From the NCBI RefSeq assembly GCF_013374995.1, contig NZ_CP056030.1:6108501-6172500 (forward strand): a DNA stretch of 64,000 nt, written 5' to 3'. Below the pieces are notes generated by a model, which was not told where the DNA came from, did not search any database, and saw nothing but the letters and a program-made list of their open reading frames with translations. Shown here piece by piece: positions 40,864-49,296 of this stretch. How positions within the stretch are numbered: the stretch's first letter is position 1; each line of letters starts with the position of its first letter. Source of the stretch: Pseudomonas eucalypticola. GTDB taxonomy: Bacteria; Pseudomonadota; Gammaproteobacteria; Pseudomonadales; Pseudomonadaceae. The position numbers and the translations under genes are program-made.

Positions 40864-41643
40864 CTAGATAGCAGTCCTGGACGCGGCTGCGTCGCGTTGG
40901 GTCGCACGCTGTCTGCAGGCCTGGCCAAAGGCCTGGAAAATGGCCAGGTAGTGCGGGTTATCCAGCACTTGCCATTCGGGATGCCACTGCAAGCCTAGTG
41001 CAAAACCTCCGCCCCCCTCGACCGACACGGCTTCTACCAGGCCATCGGGCGCCACGGCCTCGATGCGCAAACCCGGGGCCACGCGGTCGATACCCTGGGC
41101 GTGAATGGAGTTGACCTGCAACTGCGCCGGCAAACCAATGGCCTGTAAAACACCGCCGGGCTGGACAGCCACCGCATGACGCAGGGCATACTGGGCCTCG
41201 ACCGGTTGGTCCTTGGGCTCACGGTGGTCCATGAAGGTTCCGGTTTCGTGAACCTTCTGGTGCAGCGAGCCGCCCAGCGCCACGTTCAGCTCCTGAAAAC
41301 CGCGGCAAATGCCCAATACAGGCACGCCAGCGGCCACGGCGGCGCGAATCAGCGGTAGAGTGGTAGCATCACGTTCAGGGTCGTGTAGCGTGCCAGGCGT
41401 GCTGTCGGCACCGGCGTAATGGCGCGGCTCTACGTTGGACGGTGAACCGGTAAAGAGAATGCCGTCCAGCCCGTCAAGTATTTGGGTCGGTTTGAACAGT
41501 TCGCCGAGCGACGGGATGATCATCGGCAAGCCTGCGGCGGCCACGGCGACCGCGCGGACATATTTGTCACCACAGGTATGGCTGGCGTGCAGGCCGACTG
41601 GCTTTATGCAGGCGGTGACGCCGATTGTCGGCAGGCGTGCCAT
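40864..41643 (-). CDS. spuA: Gamma-glutamyl-GABA hydrolase SpuA (PuuD type)
   Basis: SpuA hydrolyses the gamma-glutamyl bond of gamma-glutamyl-GABA to release GABA. The 259-aa class I glutamine amidotransferase-like protein carries the nucleophile Cys113 in VLGICRGFQELNVALGG and the His-Glu dyad in LQWHPEWQV. LFTGSPSNVEPRHY is typical of PuuD. The start MARLPTIG is used; it is divergent from spuI across 277 bases. Confidence 0.93.
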   Translation of the reverse strand: MARLPTIGVTACIKPVGLHASHTCGDKYVRAVAVAAAGLPMIIPSLGELFKPTQILDGLDGILFTGSPSNVEPRHYAGADSTPGTLHDPERDATTLPLIRAAVAAGVPVLGICRGFQELNVALGGSLHQKVHETGTFMDHREPKDQPVEAQYALRHAVAVQPGGVLQAIGLPAQLQVNSIHAQGIDRVAPGLRIEAVAPDGLVEAVSVEGGGGFALGLQWHPEWQVLDNPHYLAIFQAFGQACRQRATQRDAAASRTAI

Positions 41644-41920
41644 GAGCTCCCCCGGTATTATTGGCGTTATGGGTTGCAAACGAGCTTAGCGTTGTTCATT
41701 TTTTTTCACAACACCCCCGTAAAAAATACAACACGGGCTGTTGAATAATTCATCTGAGGGCATTCACGGACGTAAAAAATGCCCCATTAAGCGGCAAAAA
41801 TGGCTTTCAGGCGCCATTTCAGGGCAAACCGAGGCTCGCTTGACTTCATGATGGCTTTCGGATTGACTGAAACAGCAAAAGCCCAATGATTGATATTTTT
41901 AACAACAAAGGTGTTGCATC
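41644..41920. promoter_or_regulatory. Divergent spuA/spuI control region
   Basis: This AT-rich stretch lies between two polyamine operons. It contains the inverted repeat AAATGGC / GCCATTT (41798-41819, eight-base loop) and the small inverted repeat CAACACGGGCTGTTG near 41730. I could not place a confident -35/-10 pair. A regulator acting on both sides is likely but not visible. Confidence 0.5.
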
Positions 41921-43297
41921 ATGTCGGTACCCCCGCGTGCCGTTCAGCTCAACGAAGCGAACGCATTCCTTAAGGAACATCCTGAGGTTCTGTACGTCGA
42001 CCTTCTGATTGCAGATATGAATGGTGTGGTGCGTGGCAAGCGCATCGAACGCACCAGCCTCCACAAGGTTTACGAGAAGGGCATCAACCTGCCCGCCTCG
42101 CTCTTCGCCCTGGACATCAACGGCTCTACGGTGGAAAGCACCGGGCTGGGCCTGGACATCGGCGACGCAGACCGTATCTGCTTTCCGATTCCCGACACCC
42201 TCTCCAACGAGCCCTGGCAGAAACGCCCTACCGCGCAACTGCTGATGACCATGCACGAACTGGAAGGCGAACCCTTCTTTGCCGACCCGCGCGAAGTGCT
42301 GCGCCAGGTGGTCGCGAAGTTCGACGAGCTGGGCCTGACCATCTGCGCCGCTTTCGAGCTGGAGTTCTACCTGATCGACCAGGAGAACGTGAACGGCCGC
42401 CCGCAACCGCCGCGCTCACCTATTTCCGGTAAACGCCCGCACTCGACCCAGGTGTACCTGATCGACGACCTGGACGAGTACGTGGACTGCCTGCAGGACA
42501 TCCTGGAAGGCGCCAAGGAACAAGGCATCCCGGCCGACGCCATCGTCAAGGAAAGTGCCCCGGCGCAGTTCGAAGTGAACCTGCACCACGTGGCCGACCC
42601 GATGAAGGCCTGCGACTACGCCGTGCTGCTCAAGCGCCTGATCAAGAACATCGCCTACGACCATGAAATGGACACCACCTTCATGGCCAAGCCCTACCCG
42701 GGCCAGGCGGGCAATGGCCTGCACGTGCATATCTCGATCCTGGACAAGGACGGCAAGAATATCTTCACCAGTGAGGATCCCGAGCAGAACGCCGCGCTGC
42801 GTCACGCGATCGGCGGTGTGCTCGAGACCCTGCCCGCGTCGATGGCGTTCCTGTGCCCGAACGTCAACTCGTACCGCCGTTTCGGCGCCCAGTTCTACGT
42901 GCCGAACTCGCCCTGCTGGGGCCTGGACAACCGCACCGTGGCCCTGCGCGTGCCTACCGGCACCCCGGACGCCGTGCGCATCGAACACCGCGTGGCCGGT
43001 GCCGACGCCAACCCGTACCTGCTGATGGCCGCCGTGCTGGCGGGCGTGCACCACGGCCTGACCAACAAGGTCGAGCCCAACGAGCCGGTGGAAGGCAACT
43101 CGTACGAGCAGAACGAGCAGAGCCTGCCCAACAACCTGCGCGACGCCCTGCGCGAGCTGGACGACAGCGAGATCCTGGCACGGTATATCGATCCGAAGTA
43201 CATCGATATCTTCGTGGCGTGCAAGGAAAGCGAGCTGGAGGAATTCGAGCACTCCATCTCCGACCTTGAGTACAACTGGTATCTGCATACGGTGTAA
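41921..43297 (+). CDS. spuI: Gamma-glutamyl-polyamine synthetase SpuI (glutamine synthetase family)
   Basis: This second GS-family ligase has 458 aa. LYVDLLIADMNGVVRGKRIE opens the protein, with catalytic blocks ESAPAQFEVNLHHVADPMKA, FMAKPYPGQAGNGLHVHISI and IEHRVAGADANPYLLMAAVL. It differs enough from SpuB for the two to have separate polyamine preferences. It is transcribed away from spuA and is followed by a strong terminator. Confidence 0.94.
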   Translation: MSVPPRAVQLNEANAFLKEHPEVLYVDLLIADMNGVVRGKRIERTSLHKVYEKGINLPASLFALDINGSTVESTGLGLDIGDADRICFPIPDTLSNEPWQKRPTAQLLMTMHELEGEPFFADPREVLRQVVAKFDELGLTICAAFELEFYLIDQENVNGRPQPPRSPISGKRPHSTQVYLIDDLDEYVDCLQDILEGAKEQGIPADAIVKESAPAQFEVNLHHVADPMKACDYAVLLKRLIKNIAYDHEMDTTFMAKPYPGQAGNGLHVHISILDKDGKNIFTSEDPEQNAALRHAIGGVLETLPASMAFLCPNVNSYRRFGAQFYVPNSPCWGLDNRTVALRVPTGTPDAVRIEHRVAGADANPYLLMAAVLAGVHHGLTNKVEPNEPVEGNSYEQNEQSLPNNLRDALRELDDSEILARYIDPKYIDIFVACKESELEEFEHSISDLEYNWYLHTV

Positions 43298-44105: not shown

Positions 44106-45260
44106 TCAGCCCAGGATCAAATGCGGGAGGAACCGGCTGGTATCCTTGGTGATCAGGCTGTCATCTTCGCGGATACCTATCCCCGCGGCGCGGTCGCCGA
44201 TCACCCATGAACCTACCAGCGTGTAGCTGTCGCCGAACTTGGGCAATGGCGCCAATCGCTGCAAGACATAGGGTGCATCGTCGTACGGGCCATCCACCAC
44301 GTGCAGCTGGTCATCAGGCGTGCGCAGCTCGATGTTTGCGCCTTCCCTGGAGAAGTACGGCTTGCGTACCCAGCCCTTGGGCACCGGCGAGCGCGGGTTG
44401 GTATCCAGATGGCTTTCCAGCAGGTTCGGGTGGCCTTTGTGAGCCTCCCACAGCATCGGCAGGATGCCCTTGTTGGAGAGAATCGCCTTCCAGGCGGGCT
44501 CCATGAACTGGGTGTCACACTGAGCGATGGCCGCGCCGAAAGGCTCGTGGAAGATGAACTCCCAGGCGTGCAGCTTGAACAGGTGGGGGATCCAGCGGTC
44601 CTGCAGGTCGACGAAGCGGCCATCAAGCAGGCCGATGTCTTCCAGGTCGATGTGCCGTGACTCTATACCCACCTTCTCGGCGACCAAGCGCAGGTAGTCC
44701 GTGGTCGCCTTGTCTTCCACGGAGCCTTTTATCGAAGCGAAATAGAACGGCCGCTGGATGTTCAGCGCGGCGAAGGCTTCGTGCAGGCGCGTGTCGATGC
44801 TGTTGAACTGGTCCACCGAGGCCGGCAGCATGCCGCGCTCGATGCACTGCTCCAGCCAGCCCCACTGGAAGGCCGCTGCCTCGTACAGGCTGGTGGGGGT
44901 GTCGTAGTTCAGCTCCAGCAACTTGGCCGGGCCGGTACCGTCGTAGGAGAAGTCCATACGCCCGTACAGGTGCGGGTGGCCTTCGCGCCAGGAGGTGCGC
45001 ACCAGGTCGTGAAACGCCGGCGGGATGGCCAGGCGTTCCAGTTTTTCCTCACTGTTCACCACGTCGCTGACCAGGTCCATGCACAGTTCATGAAGGGCCT
45101 GGGTCGGGTCTTCCAGGTCGTCCTCGATCTGCTTGAGGGTGAACTGGTAGTAGGCGCTTTCATCCCAATAGGGCTCGCCATCAATGGTGTGGAACATGAA
45201 GCCCAGGCGTTCGGCAGTCTGCTTCCAGTCGGGGCGTTCGGCGATGGCGATTTTCTTCAT
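44106..45260 (-). CDS. yjfC: Glutathionylspermidine synthase-like ATP-grasp protein (YjfC/YgiC)
   Basis: The 384-aa protein matches the synthetase half of glutathionylspermidine synthase without the amidase half. MKKIAIAERPDWKQTAERLG, GRMDFSYDGTGPAKLLELNY with DTPTSLYEAA, and GWVRKPYFSREGANIEL are family blocks. It would join an amine to a carboxylate using ATP; the real substrate is not known. It is the last gene of the yjfI-J-rhomboid-K-L-M-C operon, seven bases after the DUF1190 gene. Confidence 0.9.
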   Translation of the reverse strand: MKKIAIAERPDWKQTAERLGFMFHTIDGEPYWDESAYYQFTLKQIEDDLEDPTQALHELCMDLVSDVVNSEEKLERLAIPPAFHDLVRTSWREGHPHLYGRMDFSYDGTGPAKLLELNYDTPTSLYEAAAFQWGWLEQCIERGMLPASVDQFNSIDTRLHEAFAALNIQRPFYFASIKGSVEDKATTDYLRLVAEKVGIESRHIDLEDIGLLDGRFVDLQDRWIPHLFKLHAWEFIFHEPFGAAIAQCDTQFMEPAWKAILSNKGILPMLWEAHKGHPNLLESHLDTNPRSPVPKGWVRKPYFSREGANIELRTPDDQLHVVDGPYDDAPYVLQRLAPLPKFGDSYTLVGSWVIGDRAAGIGIREDDSLITKDTSRFLPHLILG

Positions 45261-45267
45261 GCTGCCC

Positions 45268-46002
45268 TCAACCGCCGAAACTGCTGCGCGACGATGAACC
45301 GCTCCAGCCACTGCGGGCCGTAGCCGAACTGCCGAAACCGCCGCGGGTGGTCGCCTGGCGTACCGACACCGGGTTGGCGTTGATACGGCCGAAGCTACTG
45401 CCACTACTGCTATAGCCGTTGCCCGACTCGCTTTGCCGCGAGCGCGAGAACGTGGCGCCGCTGTTGATGCGCGAACCCAGGGTGGAGCTGGCGTAATTGC
45501 CGCGGTCGTCACGGTACTGGTACACCGGCGCCGACCTGAAATTGCCGGTGCTGCTGCTTAGCATGTGGCCGATGAGCAGACCTGTCAGCAGGCCGCTGCC
45601 ATTGAAGCCGCCTGCGCTGCTGTCGCCGCCGCTGCGGGCCACCTCGGCCTTGGCCGAATCCAGCTGCGACTGGGTAACGGTGCCGTCGGCATCCACCTCG
45701 AAACCGCCCAGCTGGGGCATGTACTTGCCGGCCGAGTCGACCTGGCAGTAGTCCGGCACGAAGTCGGCTTCGCAGTCAGCCTTGTTGTCGTACACCGGGG
45801 CAATCTTGCGGTGCTGGCTGAGCGCGGCGATATAGGCATCGGAACACACGTCTACCGGAAACTTCTGCGCGGTGCATTCGGCCACCGTCTTGAAGTCGAA
45901 GGTTTTCTTCACCTGGTAGGTCTTCTCCGGCGCACCGCAACCGGCTACCGCCAGCGCCACCGAGGCAGCCAGCGAGAGTTGTACGTACTTGCTTCGTTTC
46001 AT
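45268..46002 (-). CDS. yjfM: DUF1190 lipoprotein (YjfM/YgiB family)
   Basis: The 244-aa protein has a lipoprotein signal, MKRSKYVQLSLAASVALAVA followed by GCGAPEK. The DUF1190 domain shows Cys-containing repeats ECTAQKFPVDVCSDAYIAAL and CEADFVPDYCQVDSAGKYMP. The last 90 residues are Ser/Gly/Arg-rich and end SSRSSFGG, a disordered tail. It sits directly before the ATP-grasp gene, as ygiB does before ygiC in E. coli. Confidence 0.88.
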   Translation of the reverse strand: MKRSKYVQLSLAASVALAVAGCGAPEKTYQVKKTFDFKTVAECTAQKFPVDVCSDAYIAALSQHRKIAPVYDNKADCEADFVPDYCQVDSAGKYMPQLGGFEVDADGTVTQSQLDSAKAEVARSGGDSSAGGFNGSGLLTGLLIGHMLSSSTGNFRSAPVYQYRDDRGNYASSTLGSRINSGATFSRSRQSESGNGYSSSGSSFGRINANPVSVRQATTRGGFGSSATARSGWSGSSSRSSFGG

Positions 46003-46016
46003 CCCTGGCTCCGCGA

Positions 46017-46445
46017 TCAGTTGGTGTTGGGCGTCATGCAGGCGGCGTTGAGCATGCCGACGCTGATGGCCACGGCCGCCACGTAGATACCGGTGGCCAC
46101 CTCACCGCGCTGGATGCGTGCCGATACGCCCTTGAGCACCAGGCTGGCGGCGAAGAATGCCAACAGCTGCACCACACCGGCGATCAGTGCCCAGACCACG
46201 AAGTCCAGCAGGCTGATGGAGTAGGCAATGACGTTGCTGGCCGGAATCGCGAAGCCGATGATGGCGCCGCCCAGGGCAATGGCAGCGGCGACGTTGCCCT
46301 CGCGAATCAGCTCGAACTCCTTGTGCGGCGTCATGCGTGTGTAGATGAACTGGAACAGCGCGAGGAAGACCCCCGCCCCCACCACGTACAACAGAAACCC
46401 CAGCACGGCGGTGGGGTTCAGCGAAATCGAAAGTGCTTCTAGCAT
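46017..46445 (-). CDS. yjfL: DUF350 integral membrane protein (YjfL)
   Basis: The 142-aa protein has four membrane helices, including AVLGFLLYVVGAGVFLALFQ, IALGGAIIGFAIPASNVIAY and LDFVVWALIAGVVQLLAFFA. The short basic/acidic link TRMTPHKEFELIREGNVAAA is the DUF350 signature. Its function is unknown. It is 18 bases after the DUF2491 gene in the same operon. Confidence 0.9.
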   Translation of the reverse strand: MLEALSISLNPTAVLGFLLYVVGAGVFLALFQFIYTRMTPHKEFELIREGNVAAAIALGGAIIGFAIPASNVIAYSISLLDFVVWALIAGVVQLLAFFAASLVLKGVSARIQRGEVATGIYVAAVAISVGMLNAACMTPNTN

Positions 46446-46463
46446 GGCATGTCCCTATGGATG

Positions 46464-47114
46464 TCAGAGGATGTTCAAGTCGGTGGGGTACAGCGAAATG
46501 CCGAGCGAGGCGCTGAGGCTGACGGTGCCCTCCTCGTCCTGTTCCACCGAGAACAGCAGGAATTCGCGGCGGTCGGTCAGCCCGGTATCACGGGCGTACA
46601 GCATGGCGCGGTGCTCGACCACGTAGGACTCGTTGGGGTTGACGACCCGTTCACGCAGGTCGGTCAGTTCGGTTTGCCCTGCCTCGGTGCCCCACTCGCG
46701 GGTGTATTGCACGCCGTCGAGGTCATAGGTCGGTAGGCCGATGTCACTGTTGGGGCCGGCCAGGCGCTGCAGCTCGCTGTTGCTGCTGATGGTGGCGTAG
46801 CGCAGGTAGTTGAACAGGATCACCGATTCGACCTGGCCATCGCGGTCACCCGTGGTGTGCACCTGCAGCCAGTAGTCCTCCTCGTCCATGTAATAGCGGT
46901 TCAACCACTGGGACTGGCCCAGGTCCACCGTGCCCACGCTGAAGATCTGCTGGGTGGGCGGAATGATCACCTTGCTGGCACCATCGAGCAGCAGCTTGAG
47001 GGTGCCGTCGAAGCTCACCGAGCGGCCCTGGGCCAGGCCCAGCGCGCCTTCCACCGCGGCCTGCGGCTTGCCGGCGGGTGCTTCCAGGCCCATGAACTGT
47101 TTGAACCAACCCAT
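46464..47114 (-). CDS. yjfK: DUF2491-family protein (YjfK)
   Basis: From the ATG at 47114 the 216-aa protein begins MGWFKQFMGLEAPAGKPQAA. WLNRYYMDEEDYWLQVHTTG and YVVEHRAMLYARDTGLTDRR are the clearest family blocks. No signal peptide or membrane helix is present, so it should act in the cytoplasm. The frame stays open upstream through the rhomboid gene, which is coincidental. No biochemical role is known. Confidence 0.85.
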   Translation of the reverse strand: MGWFKQFMGLEAPAGKPQAAVEGALGLAQGRSVSFDGTLKLLLDGASKVIIPPTQQIFSVGTVDLGQSQWLNRYYMDEEDYWLQVHTTGDRDGQVESVILFNYLRYATISSNSELQRLAGPNSDIGLPTYDLDGVQYTREWGTEAGQTELTDLRERVVNPNESYVVEHRAMLYARDTGLTDRREFLLFSVEQDEEGTVSLSASLGISLYPTDLNIL

Positions 47115-47116
47115 CT

Positions 47117-47665
47117 TCAGACTCCTTCTTCTTTGCGCAAAAGCACCCGTGCCGCCACAAACCCCGCCACCGCACCGGCGATATGGGATTCGAACGAAAC
47201 GCCATAGCGTGGCAGAAAACCGTAGACCAGCCCACCGTACAGCAGCATCGCGGCCGCGGCACACAAGAGATTGGCCCAACTGTGGTGGAACCAGGCACGG
47301 GCCACTACGTATACCCACAGGCCAAACACCCAGCCGCTGGCCCCTACATGGTAATAGCCACGGCCGAACAGCCATACCAACACGCCACCGACCACGATGA
47401 TCAGGCCGCTGGCGGCGAGGAACCGGCCGACACCGTCCTTGGCCACCAGCGTACCCAGCACGATGAACGGCACCAGGTTGCCCAGCAGGTGCCACAGCGA
47501 ACCATGCAGGAACGGTGCGCTGATGATACCCAGCAGGCCCTGGGCCGAACGCGGCAGCAGGCCGTAGGTGTTCAGGCTGTAACCGGAGAGCAGGTTGAGC
47601 GCCTGCACCACGCACATCACCCCGGCGAGCCAGAGTACGGGTTTGAAATCCTTGGCAGCGATCAC
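47117..47665 (-). CDS. Rhomboid-family intramembrane serine protease
   Basis: From a GTG start with AGGGAGAG just upstream, the protein has 182 aa. FLHGSLWHLLGNLVPFIVLG is the L1/TM2 block. The nucleophile is Ser110 in HVGASGWVFGLW and the catalytic His161 is in FESHIAGAVAGFVAA. Six helices are visible. The yjfK start follows after two bases, so it is part of the operon. E. coli yjf operons lack it as I remember; it may shed or activate a membrane partner such as the DUF350 protein. Confidence 0.88.
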   Translation of the reverse strand: MIAAKDFKPVLWLAGVMCVVQALNLLSGYSLNTYGLLPRSAQGLLGIISAPFLHGSLWHLLGNLVPFIVLGTLVAKDGVGRFLAASGLIIVVGGVLVWLFGRGYYHVGASGWVFGLWVYVVARAWFHHSWANLLCAAAAMLLYGGLVYGFLPRYGVSFESHIAGAVAGFVAARVLLRKEEGV

Positions 47666-47699
47666 TGCGCTCTCCCTGTGTTGCCATTCCCCCGCAGGG

Positions 47700-47718
47700 C
47701 CGGGCGACGATCGGGAAG
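47700..47718. repeat. Diverged REP-like unit inside the yjf operon
   Basis: CCGGGCGACGATCGGGAAG differs at two positions from the unit at 43386. It lies in the 124 bases between the yjfJ stop and the rhomboid start, the widest gap in the operon. Confidence 0.55.
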
Positions 47719-47789
47719 AAGGTGCCACGCTGCATCAGGGATGCATGCGGGCACTGTTCCCGGCGTCCGTCCGGTCCTGCAGAAGGACG

Positions 47790-48494
47790 TTACTGGCCGG
47801 CTTGCTGCTTGCGCAGGCGTTCCAGGATGGCGTCGGCGCTGCCGGTATCCGGGACGATGCCGGCTTCCTTGAGCTTGCGCTCCAGGTCATTGCCGGTTGA
47901 GGCCTCGGCCAGTTGGTCCTGGGCCTCGAGTTCGGCAGCGCGCTGCTCCTGCTTGGCCTGCAGGCGGTTCAGGGTGCCCACGGCGGTTTCCAGCTTGCCG
48001 TTGGCGCCGCCGCTGGCAATGGAAGCGCTGACCTGGGCCTTCTGCACGCTTTCACGCGCCTTGGCCACGTCTACCTGCTGGCGCAGGCTCTTGATGCGGG
48101 CCTCGGCCTTGGTGATGTCCTTGCGCATCTTCTCGACGTAACCGCCGAACTCCACGACCTGCTTGTGCTCAGCCTCACGCTCGTTGACCTGCACGGCGAT
48201 GGCCTCGGCCACTTCGTGGGCCAGATCATTGCGCTCGGCTTTCATCGCCGCCAGCGCCTTGCTTTCCAGGTCGCCGATGCGGGCGTCGTACTGGGCCACG
48301 CGGTCGGTGGCCAGCTTGTGCTTGGCCATGATGGTCACCAGTTCGCGCTTGGCGTTGGCCAGGGCAGTGTCGGCGTCACGGATTTCCTGGTCCAGGATGC
48401 GCAGGGCCTGCTGGTCGACGATGGACTCGCCCACCTCGCTGGCACCACCGCGCAGCGCCGTGAACAACTTGCTCCAGATGGATTGATTACTCAT
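47790..48494 (-). CDS. yjfJ: PspA/IM30-family protein (YjfJ)
   Basis: The 234-aa protein is a long coiled coil of the ESCRT-III-related PspA family, which coats damaged inner membrane. Typical text is LDQEIRDADTALANAKRELV, MKAERNDLAHEVAEAIAVQV and LETAVGTLNRLQAKQEQRAA. The N-terminal amphipathic start of PspA is shortened to SIWSKLFTALRGGASEVGES. It follows yjfI by four bases. Confidence 0.92.
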   Translation of the reverse strand: MSNQSIWSKLFTALRGGASEVGESIVDQQALRILDQEIRDADTALANAKRELVTIMAKHKLATDRVAQYDARIGDLESKALAAMKAERNDLAHEVAEAIAVQVNEREAEHKQVVEFGGYVEKMRKDITKAEARIKSLRQQVDVAKARESVQKAQVSASIASGGANGKLETAVGTLNRLQAKQEQRAAELEAQDQLAEASTGNDLERKLKEAGIVPDTGSADAILERLRKQQAGQ

Positions 48495-48498
48495 GTCG

Positions 48499-49167
48499 TT
48501 ACTCCTTGGCTTTCTTGAAGAAGCCTTCGAAGGCTTCGGCGGCGCGTTGCACGTTATCGACCAGGGTGAACACTTCGGTCACCACGTTGGTCAGGCTCGA
48601 ATTGGCGCTCAGGGCGCCAAACATGTTGTAGACGGTCTGCCCGTTGGGCATCACTTCCAGGCCGATGGACGACAGCGGGAACAGCTCGCGGCTGCGCAGC
48701 ACGGCGTCATTGAAGCGGGCCACATCCTTTATGGAGTCGACGTCCACCAGCACGGTGTCGACGATGATCTGCTCGCCCACCACGGCAATGTGAATCGGCA
48801 GGCCGCCGTACTCGTTCATTTCCAGCTTCAGGCTTTGCTCGGCCCCTTGCACCAGGGTCGGGGTGATTTCCTTCGACGCCACTTCATCCAGGGCCTGGAA
48901 GGCCTGGTGAAGGCGGTCGAGGGTCCATTTCTCCGCTGAGGTCATGTGTTCCTCCAACTTGAATGTGCCAGCCATCACAGGCTGGCGGAGCTGTTTTTCC
49001 ACTTGCTTGAGCAACCCGCGGTTCTCCGGGAGCACCCACGCCTCGTGTTTCACATACCCGGCATCGGCCAGCCCGGCTCGCATTTTCTTCATGTAGAAGC
49101 TGGAGGTTTTTTTCTCCGCAGGGGCCTTCTTTACCGTTGCCTTGTCGTTGCCAGCCTTGCTTGCCAT
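48499..49167 (-). CDS. yjfI: DUF2170-family protein (YjfI)
   Basis: The 222-aa protein has a basic N-terminal tail (residues 1-22, Lys/Ala-rich), then SSFYMKKMRAGLADAGYVKH, a short helix-turn-helix-like segment. The DUF2170 domain contains GLPIHIAVVGEQIIVDTVLV and FPLSSIGLEVMPNGQTVYNM. It is first in the operon. The basic tail and HTH-like text would fit a DNA-binding role, which is inference only. The end, AAEAFEGFFKKAKE, runs to four bases before yjfJ. Confidence 0.85.
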   Translation of the reverse strand: MASKAGNDKATVKKAPAEKKTSSFYMKKMRAGLADAGYVKHEAWVLPENRGLLKQVEKQLRQPVMAGTFKLEEHMTSAEKWTLDRLHQAFQALDEVASKEITPTLVQGAEQSLKLEMNEYGGLPIHIAVVGEQIIVDTVLVDVDSIKDVARFNDAVLRSRELFPLSSIGLEVMPNGQTVYNMFGALSANSSLTNVVTEVFTLVDNVQRAAEAFEGFFKKAKE

Positions 49168-49180
49168 CGGGTCGATTCCG

Positions 49181-49261
49181 TATCACATGTGATAAACATA
49201 CACCCTTTGCAGAAACCTGCAACACATCACGCGTGAGAAAATATTTCCGGAAAACGGAAAT
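49181..49261. promoter_or_regulatory. Cluster of four palindromes upstream of the yjf operon
   Basis: The 96 bases before yjfI hold TATCACATGTGATA (49181-49194), TTGCAG-4-CTGCAA (49207-49222), TCACGCGTGA (49227-49236) and ATTTCCG-5-CGGAAAT (49243-49261). The first and third share TCAC-N2-GTGA and are centred 44 bases apart, like two sites for one dimeric regulator. Confidence 0.6.
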
Positions 49262-49262
49262 G

Positions 49263-49296
49263 AAAAAACCCCGCCGGGCGCAAGCCCGGCGGGGTT
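49263..49296 (-). terminator. Rho-independent terminator after ssuF
   Basis: CCCCGCCGGGC, loop GCAA and GCCCGGCGGGG form an 11-bp stem at 49269-49294. On the minus strand it is followed by a U-run from six A at 49263-49268. It ends the ssuEADCBF transcript. Confidence 0.93.

Follow-up and report, generated by a model that had tools for sequence, protein, structure and literature searches.

A PspA gene cluster of Pseudomonas eucalypticola with a predicted rhomboid protease and putative operators ahead of an extended DUF2170 gene

Introduction

How membrane damage is sensed by PspA systems lying outside the classical psp operon is an open question, and one that is raised by a seven-gene cluster of Pseudomonas eucalypticola encoding a PspA/IM30 protein. 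In Escherichia coli, PspA is a stress protein of the pspF-pspABCDE locus, which is controlled by PspF and sigma-54. The P. eucalypticola cluster lies in a stretch of 64,000 nucleotides (contig NZ_CP056030.1, positions 6,108,501 to 6,172,500), referred to below as the window. It occupies positions 44106-49167 of the minus strand and consists of tightly spaced genes for DUF2170, PspA/IM30, a rhomboid, DUF2491, DUF350, DUF1190 and a GSP_synth protein. A first-pass annotation, made from the sequence, described it as the E. coli yjfIJKLMC envelope module with an inserted rhomboid protease.

Two aspects of this cluster seem to be new: the rhomboid repeatedly accompanies the DUF2170-PspA pair across genomes of the genus, and an N-terminal extension of about 50 residues in DUF2170 co-occurs with TYACRYGTRA palindromes ahead of the gene. 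Taken as a whole, the cluster is probably an ATP-grasp-class PspA stress operon, in which DUF2170 would act as an autorepressor on these operators and the rhomboid would clear damaged or orphan membrane proteins. The more specific proposal, that DUF2170 proteins with the extension are PspA-responsive autorepressors and constitute a switch independent of PspF and sigma-54 for two PspA operon families sharing one rhomboid in Pseudomonas, is put forward tentatively.

A seven-gene cluster of the yjf type

A Pfam search of the proteins of the window placed all seven assignments above the curated cut-offs (DUF2170, 153.8 bits; PspA_IM30, 142.6; Rhomboid, 81, with a cut-off of 22.6; DUF2491, 143.2; DUF350, 125.6; DUF1190, 83.8; GSP_synth, 465.7). 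All seven genes run in one direction at close spacing, and the likeness to E. coli also holds, as the gene order of K-12 MG1655, yjfI-J-K-L-M-C, matches and no gene separates its J and K; the description of a seven-gene, yjf-type envelope module with PspA (PF04012) plus a protease was therefore sound. This PspA gives the single PF04012 match of the whole genome, and the rhomboid is one of two rhomboid matches, the other being longer and located elsewhere. The seven genes are likely, from their arrangement, to be transcribed together as one unit.

Palindromes upstream of DUF2170

Two palindromes, TCACATGTGA and TCACGCGTGA, with the consensus TYACRYGTRA, precede DUF2170 in the window; neither they nor the extension of the DUF2170 protein figured in the first-pass annotation. 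They were followed through a genus sample of 298 genomes, in which presence counts are non-independent observations; loci were typed with profile hidden Markov models built in the analysis, in the surroundings of the DUF2491 genes of 124 genomes, P. eucalypticola being represented by the window, and in 22 rhomboid-bearing genomes without DUF2491. The consensus is found within 220 bp upstream of 111 of the 112 yjf-type DUF2170 genes with the extension (two sites in 83, the paired sites having a spacing of 46 in 64), and within 300 bp upstream of all 112, two of which come from another family. The DUF2170 genes of a second kind of PspA operon, the bac type described below, have it in 15/15 cases within 220 bp upstream, with two sites in 14 and a spacing of 22-23. 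As a control, windows taken from these loci at least 300 bp away from the gene contain it in 0/2501 cases. It is likewise absent from the whole locus in the four cases in which DUF2170 lacks an intact extension (E. coli L004, L151, L092 and L127) and in all six operons without DUF2170. L092 has two stops within the extension, and neither of its sites is palindromic any longer, presumably through joint decay of the presumed binder and its sites.

The sites are nearly confined to this position. Across 126 loci (1.55 Mb), 197 of 198 lie within 330 bp of DUF2170, and 80 named Pseudomonas loci all have at least one site, with two or more in 73. The paired pattern was found in 79 of 276 genomes, with one copy in each, and its reversed form in none; 76 of these 79 pairs sit in a yjf locus of the sample, two more, those of the window and of genome G546, fit by coordinates, and the pairs in the sampled yjf loci are all (82/82) within 350 bp upstream of DUF2170. 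The link between extension and operator is well supported by these sequence comparisons. In the 6.4 Mb genome of P. eucalypticola itself, TCACRYGTGA occurs at three places, two of which are the operon pair.

The third, at about 1501-1510 of L256 (G000:C1:6331026), is a possible further target; its flanking genes, named by reading their sequence, are presumably UvrD-like and Tim44-like. At another locus, L158, a GC-rich stretch resembling an inverted repeat lies about 50-200 bp upstream of DUF2170, between operator and gene, as if inserted.

The extended DUF2170 protein

The C-terminal domain of DUF2170 is assigned, on the basis of its predicted structure, to the CesT/Tir-like fold of type III secretion system chaperones, its model matching BacA (8q8o, E 3e-11) and then SigE, YbjN and ExsC (E about 1e-3). 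The extension of about 50 residues is conserved in yjf-type and bac-type proteins as well as in another family, and has a helix-strand-helix appearance by eye. Weak profile matches were obtained over nine extension members: to UrfF, "plasmid repression protein F", for 7/9 (best E 0.0018); to the MazE-like family PF11455 for 3/9, the window not among them (best E 0.055); to a transcriptional-regulator PHROG for 2/9; and to an unnamed PHROG for 4/9 (best E 0.00037). The NCBIfam model of BacA takes in the extension, as it does on the DUF2170 of the window, which scores 226.6 bits over residues 18-219 against the equivalog cut-off of 300 (NF050185) and by its sequence is related to BacA rather than an equivalog of it.

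The rhomboid in two types of PspA operon

DUF2491 was found in 124/298 genomes and a homolog of the window rhomboid in 79/298, with one match each. Between PspA and DUF2491, a rhomboid followed by a K+ channel (an Ion_trans_2 protein whose TrkA_N match is below threshold) is present in 37/124 operons, a rhomboid alone in 20, including the window (the L155 contig starts at the rhomboid and that of L164 ends before DUF2170), and a channel alone in 16, two of them cut by contig ends. The DUF2170-PspA pair was not seen in seven, in L106 owing to a contig end, with DUF2170 located on a different contig, and one DUF2491 gene stands alone. The rhomboid thus occupies this slot in 57/124 DUF2491-bearing genomes, the count that the first-pass annotation had called for; uniqueness of the rhomboid to this strain, on which its proposal would have foundered, does not apply, and the recurrence indicates that the arrangement is not due to chance. 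Among 80 named Pseudomonas loci, which partly overlap with the genus sample, a rhomboid is in the slot in 39 of the 76 with enough contig.

The 22 rhomboid-bearing genomes without DUF2491, 20 of whose loci were examined with upstream DNA, fall into two groups: 16 of the bac type and six with the rhomboid beside or near YaeQ/RecJ. The order in 15/20 loci is DUF2170, PspA, one or two open frames, a DUF3686 ATPase and the rhomboid, followed in 14 by a PLD-domain gene; a sixteenth case, G396, fits the DUF3686-rhomboid arrangement by coordinates. This DUF3686 operon is the bac type, the first group of Ravi 2024 (PMC11237479), and by analogy its middle genes are probably YqiJ-like and flotillin-like. 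DUF3686 occurs in 25/298 genomes, 16 with an adjoining rhomboid, five without any rhomboid match and four with a yjf-type operon as well; in these four, the sole rhomboid copy is in the yjf-type operon. The DUF2170-PspA pair is, then, linked to a rhomboid in two operon types, of which the bac type contains no ligase in the stretch examined.

Quick trees, with SH-aLRT (Shimodaira-Hasegawa-like approximate likelihood ratio test) support only, divide the rhomboids into three sets, yjf-I (18), bac plus orphans (22) and yjf-II (39, including the window), with the branching order among the sets unresolved. Rhomboid and channel each need 10 changes on the operon tree. Both main clades have the rhomboid at deep positions, which is read here as an early presence in the genus followed by several losses; parallel gain is the less favoured reading. 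S110 and H161 are invariant in 11 aligned sequences, so that the GxSG serine and the histidine are present, and the protein is predicted to be a protease with conserved catalytic residues. Translation most likely starts at the GTG at 47665 (182 residues), and not at 47728, because AGGGAGAG stops 4 bases ahead of this GTG and relatives share its position.

At the level of the class, the rhomboid profile matches 45/248 genomes and DUF2491 is found in 4/274, the genome of the window being included in both counts.

Two side observations concern operon content. L087 and L257 (Pseudomonas sp. T1-3-2), which are of one lineage, have a second DUF2491-DUF350-DUF1190-ligase set behind the first, and six operons (L114, L122-L126) retain this set without adjoining DUF2170 and PspA.

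Relation to known operons and rhomboids

The operon can be assigned, from its gene content, to the ATP-grasp class of PspA operons, the third group of Ravi 2024 (PMC11237479), a CesT/Tir-PspA class that is already in print without the rhomboid. The available part of that paper gives the group the same DUF2170-PspA pair, DUF2491, DUF350, DUF1190 lipoprotein and ATP-grasp ligase; the window has all of these on one strand, the ligase being of the GSP_synth type, and lacks the K+ channel of the group, which some other operons of the genus possess. The main text contains no occurrence of "rhomboid", the operon section, as available, describes no operator or DNA-binding part of DUF2170, and the RHH factor that it names is only a distinct gene at the end of second-group operons. 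E. coli yjfIJKLMC has six genes in the order of the window and differs in having no rhomboid, no channel, no operator and a YjfI without the extension.

P. aeruginosa bacABCDEF begins with a DUF2170-PspA pair, as does the window operon, and, according to the part of the study available, a bacA mutant over-accumulates the rest of the operon (PMC10948618). Regulation is ascribed there to sigma-54 and protein contacts, and "DNA-binding", "ribbon" and "rhomboid" do not occur in the main text; the available part of PMC13092808 names no DNA-binding part of BacA. The classical psp operon shares with the window its stress protein PspA and differs in its control by PspF and sigma-54: upstream of yjf-type genes, no sigma-54 site scored above shuffled sequence (PspF was not searched for), and the window PspA scores 22 bits against the cut-off of 242.95 for the classical PspA equivalog (TIGR02977). 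The remark of the first-pass annotation that no function is established for the combination was incomplete, as it missed published work on the operon class (PMC11237479), on raised expression of yjfIJKL (PMC12492005) and on the bac operon (PMC10948618).

The rhomboids GlpG and Rhom7 are reported to clear orphan membrane proteins in Shigella (PMC7232013), and YqgP of Bacillus to serve FtsH (PMC7231995), both being cases of membrane-protein quality control in the available parts of these papers. By analogy, a similar role may be suggested for the window rhomboid; unlike these proteins, its family has no solved relative by profile search, and it scores 25.9 bits against a cut-off of 84 for rhombosortase (TIGR03902). 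In a 2025 review, as far as available, PA3086 of P. aeruginosa is a rhomboid without substrate or function (PMC12615303). No link of the rhomboid to these operons was found in the literature, in a search that had most subscription papers and all supplements outside its scope and leaves aside PMC8749415, PMC11919738, PMC2593051 and PMC4624368, which mention rhomboid, phage shock and PspA.

Ligase, lipoprotein and expression

The nearest solved proteins to the ligase are E. coli YjfC and YgiC, with residues 14-394 of 7uk6 matched (E 9e-118). By full-length sequence likeness, the protein is placed in the YjfC/YgiC peptide-spermidine type; YjfC is said, in work of Pederick from 2023, to ligate spermidine to peptides, and the RefSeq name of E. 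coli YjfC indicates the same. The earlier suggestion of a spermidine-type ligase is consistent with this result, and that of a lipoprotein agrees with the lipobox of DUF1190. In 28 genomes that form one clade and lack rhomboid and channel (e.g., L094, L120 and L108), the DUF1190 lipobox has been lost as well, apparently in one event. In heat-evolved E. coli, yjfIJKL are strongly upregulated, and the authors predict a one-base promoter deletion as the cause (PMC12492005, in the part available).

Proposed mechanism

The operon would be expressed as a whole from one promoter, with a dedicated palindromic operator on each side, and binding of the DUF2170 extension to the TYACRYGTRA palindromes would repress it. 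The CesT/Tir-like domain of the same protein would hold PspA; on membrane damage, PspA would be drawn to the membrane, the DUF2170-PspA-DNA state would change and the operon would be derepressed, without PspF or sigma-54. Its products may then act on the membrane: a PspA polymer, the channel-like DUF350 protein and the DUF1190 lipoprotein with the spermidine-type ligase, joined in many Pseudomonas by the rhomboid, either alone or together with the K+ channel; the rhomboid would clear membrane proteins that are damaged or orphaned. We infer DNA binding by the extension and control by PspA from the co-occurrence of extension and operators, from the bacA transposon mutant, in which BacB-F are raised 6- to 13-fold (PMC10948618, in the part available), and from the binding of BacA to BacB (PspA) predicted by AlphaFold2 (0.981; PMC13092808, in the part available). 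If correct, a switch consisting of one protein and defined operators would open damage sensing by PspA to testing, would explain the over-accumulation of the bac operon in its bacA mutant, and would provide a physiological context for a bacterial rhomboid of unknown role.

Several observations weigh against this model. The AlphaFold2 model of the extension has a pLDDT (predicted local distance difference test) mostly below 50 and two helices with no strand, no credible match to the extension was found among solved structures, and the window extension alone matches just the BacA model, neither UrfF nor the MazE-like family. No sigma-70 promoter reached the scan threshold. A universal role for the switch is excluded by E. 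coli YjfI, which is without the extension. In the bacA mutant, read-through from the inserted transposon could likewise raise the downstream genes, and the PA3732 and PA3729 transcripts of P. aeruginosa fell after heat shock (PMC4957987, in the part available), which counts against a simple heat model. As for the rhomboid, 43/124 yjf-type operons of the genus have neither rhomboid nor channel (44 in the full typing set, which also holds E. coli and two other-family genomes and has 16 (+2) channel-only operons), and it is present in 0/4 such operons outside the genus (E. coli and L150-L152).

Alternative explanations

The rhomboid could be a passenger, that is, the single-copy housekeeping rhomboid of the lineage, which came to lie in PspA operons by chance and has unrelated substrates. 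Six of the 79 rhomboid-bearing genomes (L131, L139, L140, L142, L143 and L149) contain no DUF2170 match and have the rhomboid next to or close to YaeQ/RecJ, perhaps as a remnant of a lost bac operon; the 10 gains or losses on the operon tree, an internal stop in two of the 79 rhomboid matches, and the absence of the DUF2170-PspA pair beside all 20 inspected of 44 related non-genus rhomboids, eight of whose neighbours, scanned with Pfam, have no family in common, point the same way. This explanation is nevertheless rather unlikely, as 73/79 copies are within one of two different PspA operons, the four genomes with both DUF3686 and a yjf-type operon keep their single copy in the latter, the rhomboid tree splits into its three sets according to context, and the rhomboid of the window ends two bases before the DUF2491 start. 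The first-pass annotation saw in the rhomboid a regulated cleavage step, and it might cut one product of its own operon, at the DUF1190 lipoprotein signal region, in DUF350 or in the K+ channel. The canonical DUF1190 lipobox is present in 57/57 rhomboid-bearing operons and lost in the 28-genome clade lacking rhomboid and channel, but that loss is one evolutionary event, the lipobox is also found in 18/18 channel-only, 16/44 neither-type and 6/7 typed pairless operons, and the searched stretches of the rhomboid-sharing bac-type operon contain none of DUF1190, DUF350 and the channel; cleavage of an operon product is accordingly improbable, and clearance of damaged or orphan membrane proteins is the preferred role.

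With respect to regulation, it is doubtful that the palindromes are bound by another regulator, such as the TetR-like neighbour or a global factor, rather than by DUF2170: the extension is short, its fold is unresolved and perfect palindromes suit many repressor families, but the sites track the extension in two operon types, are gone where it is missing or disrupted, and hardly occur away from DUF2170. Control by sigma-54, as in the classical psp operon, has been proposed for P. aeruginosa bacA in the available part of PMC10948618. It is very improbable here, as the best -24/-12 matches upstream of yjf-type genes are not above those in shuffled sequence; bac-type upstream regions score similarly to the yjf type, with no shuffle control for the bac type. 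Autorepression by DUF2170 is retained as the preferred reading.

Feature coordinates and neighbouring genes

The positions of the genes and putative control elements are given in Table 1. The DUF2491 start was set at 47114. The 94 bases at 49168-49261, which the first-pass annotation counted within the module, are noncoding and constitute the control region.

Table 1. Genes and putative control elements of the cluster, in window coordinates.
Feature	Position	Strand	Evidence
DUF2170 (YjfI/BacA-like), 222 residues; conserved N-terminal extension of ~50 residues plus predicted CesT/Tir-like domain	48499..49167	-	PF09938; fold match BacA 8q8o
PspA/IM30 (YjfJ-like), 234 residues	47790..48494	-	PF04012; 37% identity to E. 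coli YjfJ
Rhomboid intramembrane protease (predicted), 182 residues; GASG serine, SFExH histidine	47117..47665	-	PF01694
DUF2491 (YjfK-like), 216 residues, beta-rich	46464..47114	-	PF10679; AlphaFold2 model pLDDT 82.3
DUF350 (YjfL-like) membrane protein, 142 residues	46017..46445	-	PF03994
DUF1190 (YjfM-like) lipoprotein, 244 residues; lipobox VAGC; tail with RGGFG, C-terminal GG	45268..46002	-	PF06693
YjfC/YgiC-type ATP-grasp ligase, 384 residues	44106..45260	-	PF03738; PDB 7uk6 E 9e-118, 7uk8; 46% identity to YgiC
Operator palindrome 1 (putative), TCACATGTGA	49183..49192	.	15 bases from DUF2170 start codon
Operator palindrome 2 (putative), TCACGCGTGA	49227..49236	.	44 bases start to start from palindrome 1
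Terminator-like hairpin after upstream Mop-domain gene, operon boundary	49267..49296	-	

Upstream of the cluster, the Mop-domain gene with its terminator-like hairpin adjoins sulfonate (ssu) genes. The downstream neighbour is a convergent TetR-like gene (below equivalog cut-offs), beside which, at 40864-43297, are genes resembling gamma-glutamylputrescine synthetase/glutamine synthetase and gamma-glutamyl-GABA hydrolase (also below equivalog cut-offs); genes of polyamine-catabolism type thus lie near an operon with a spermidine-type ligase.

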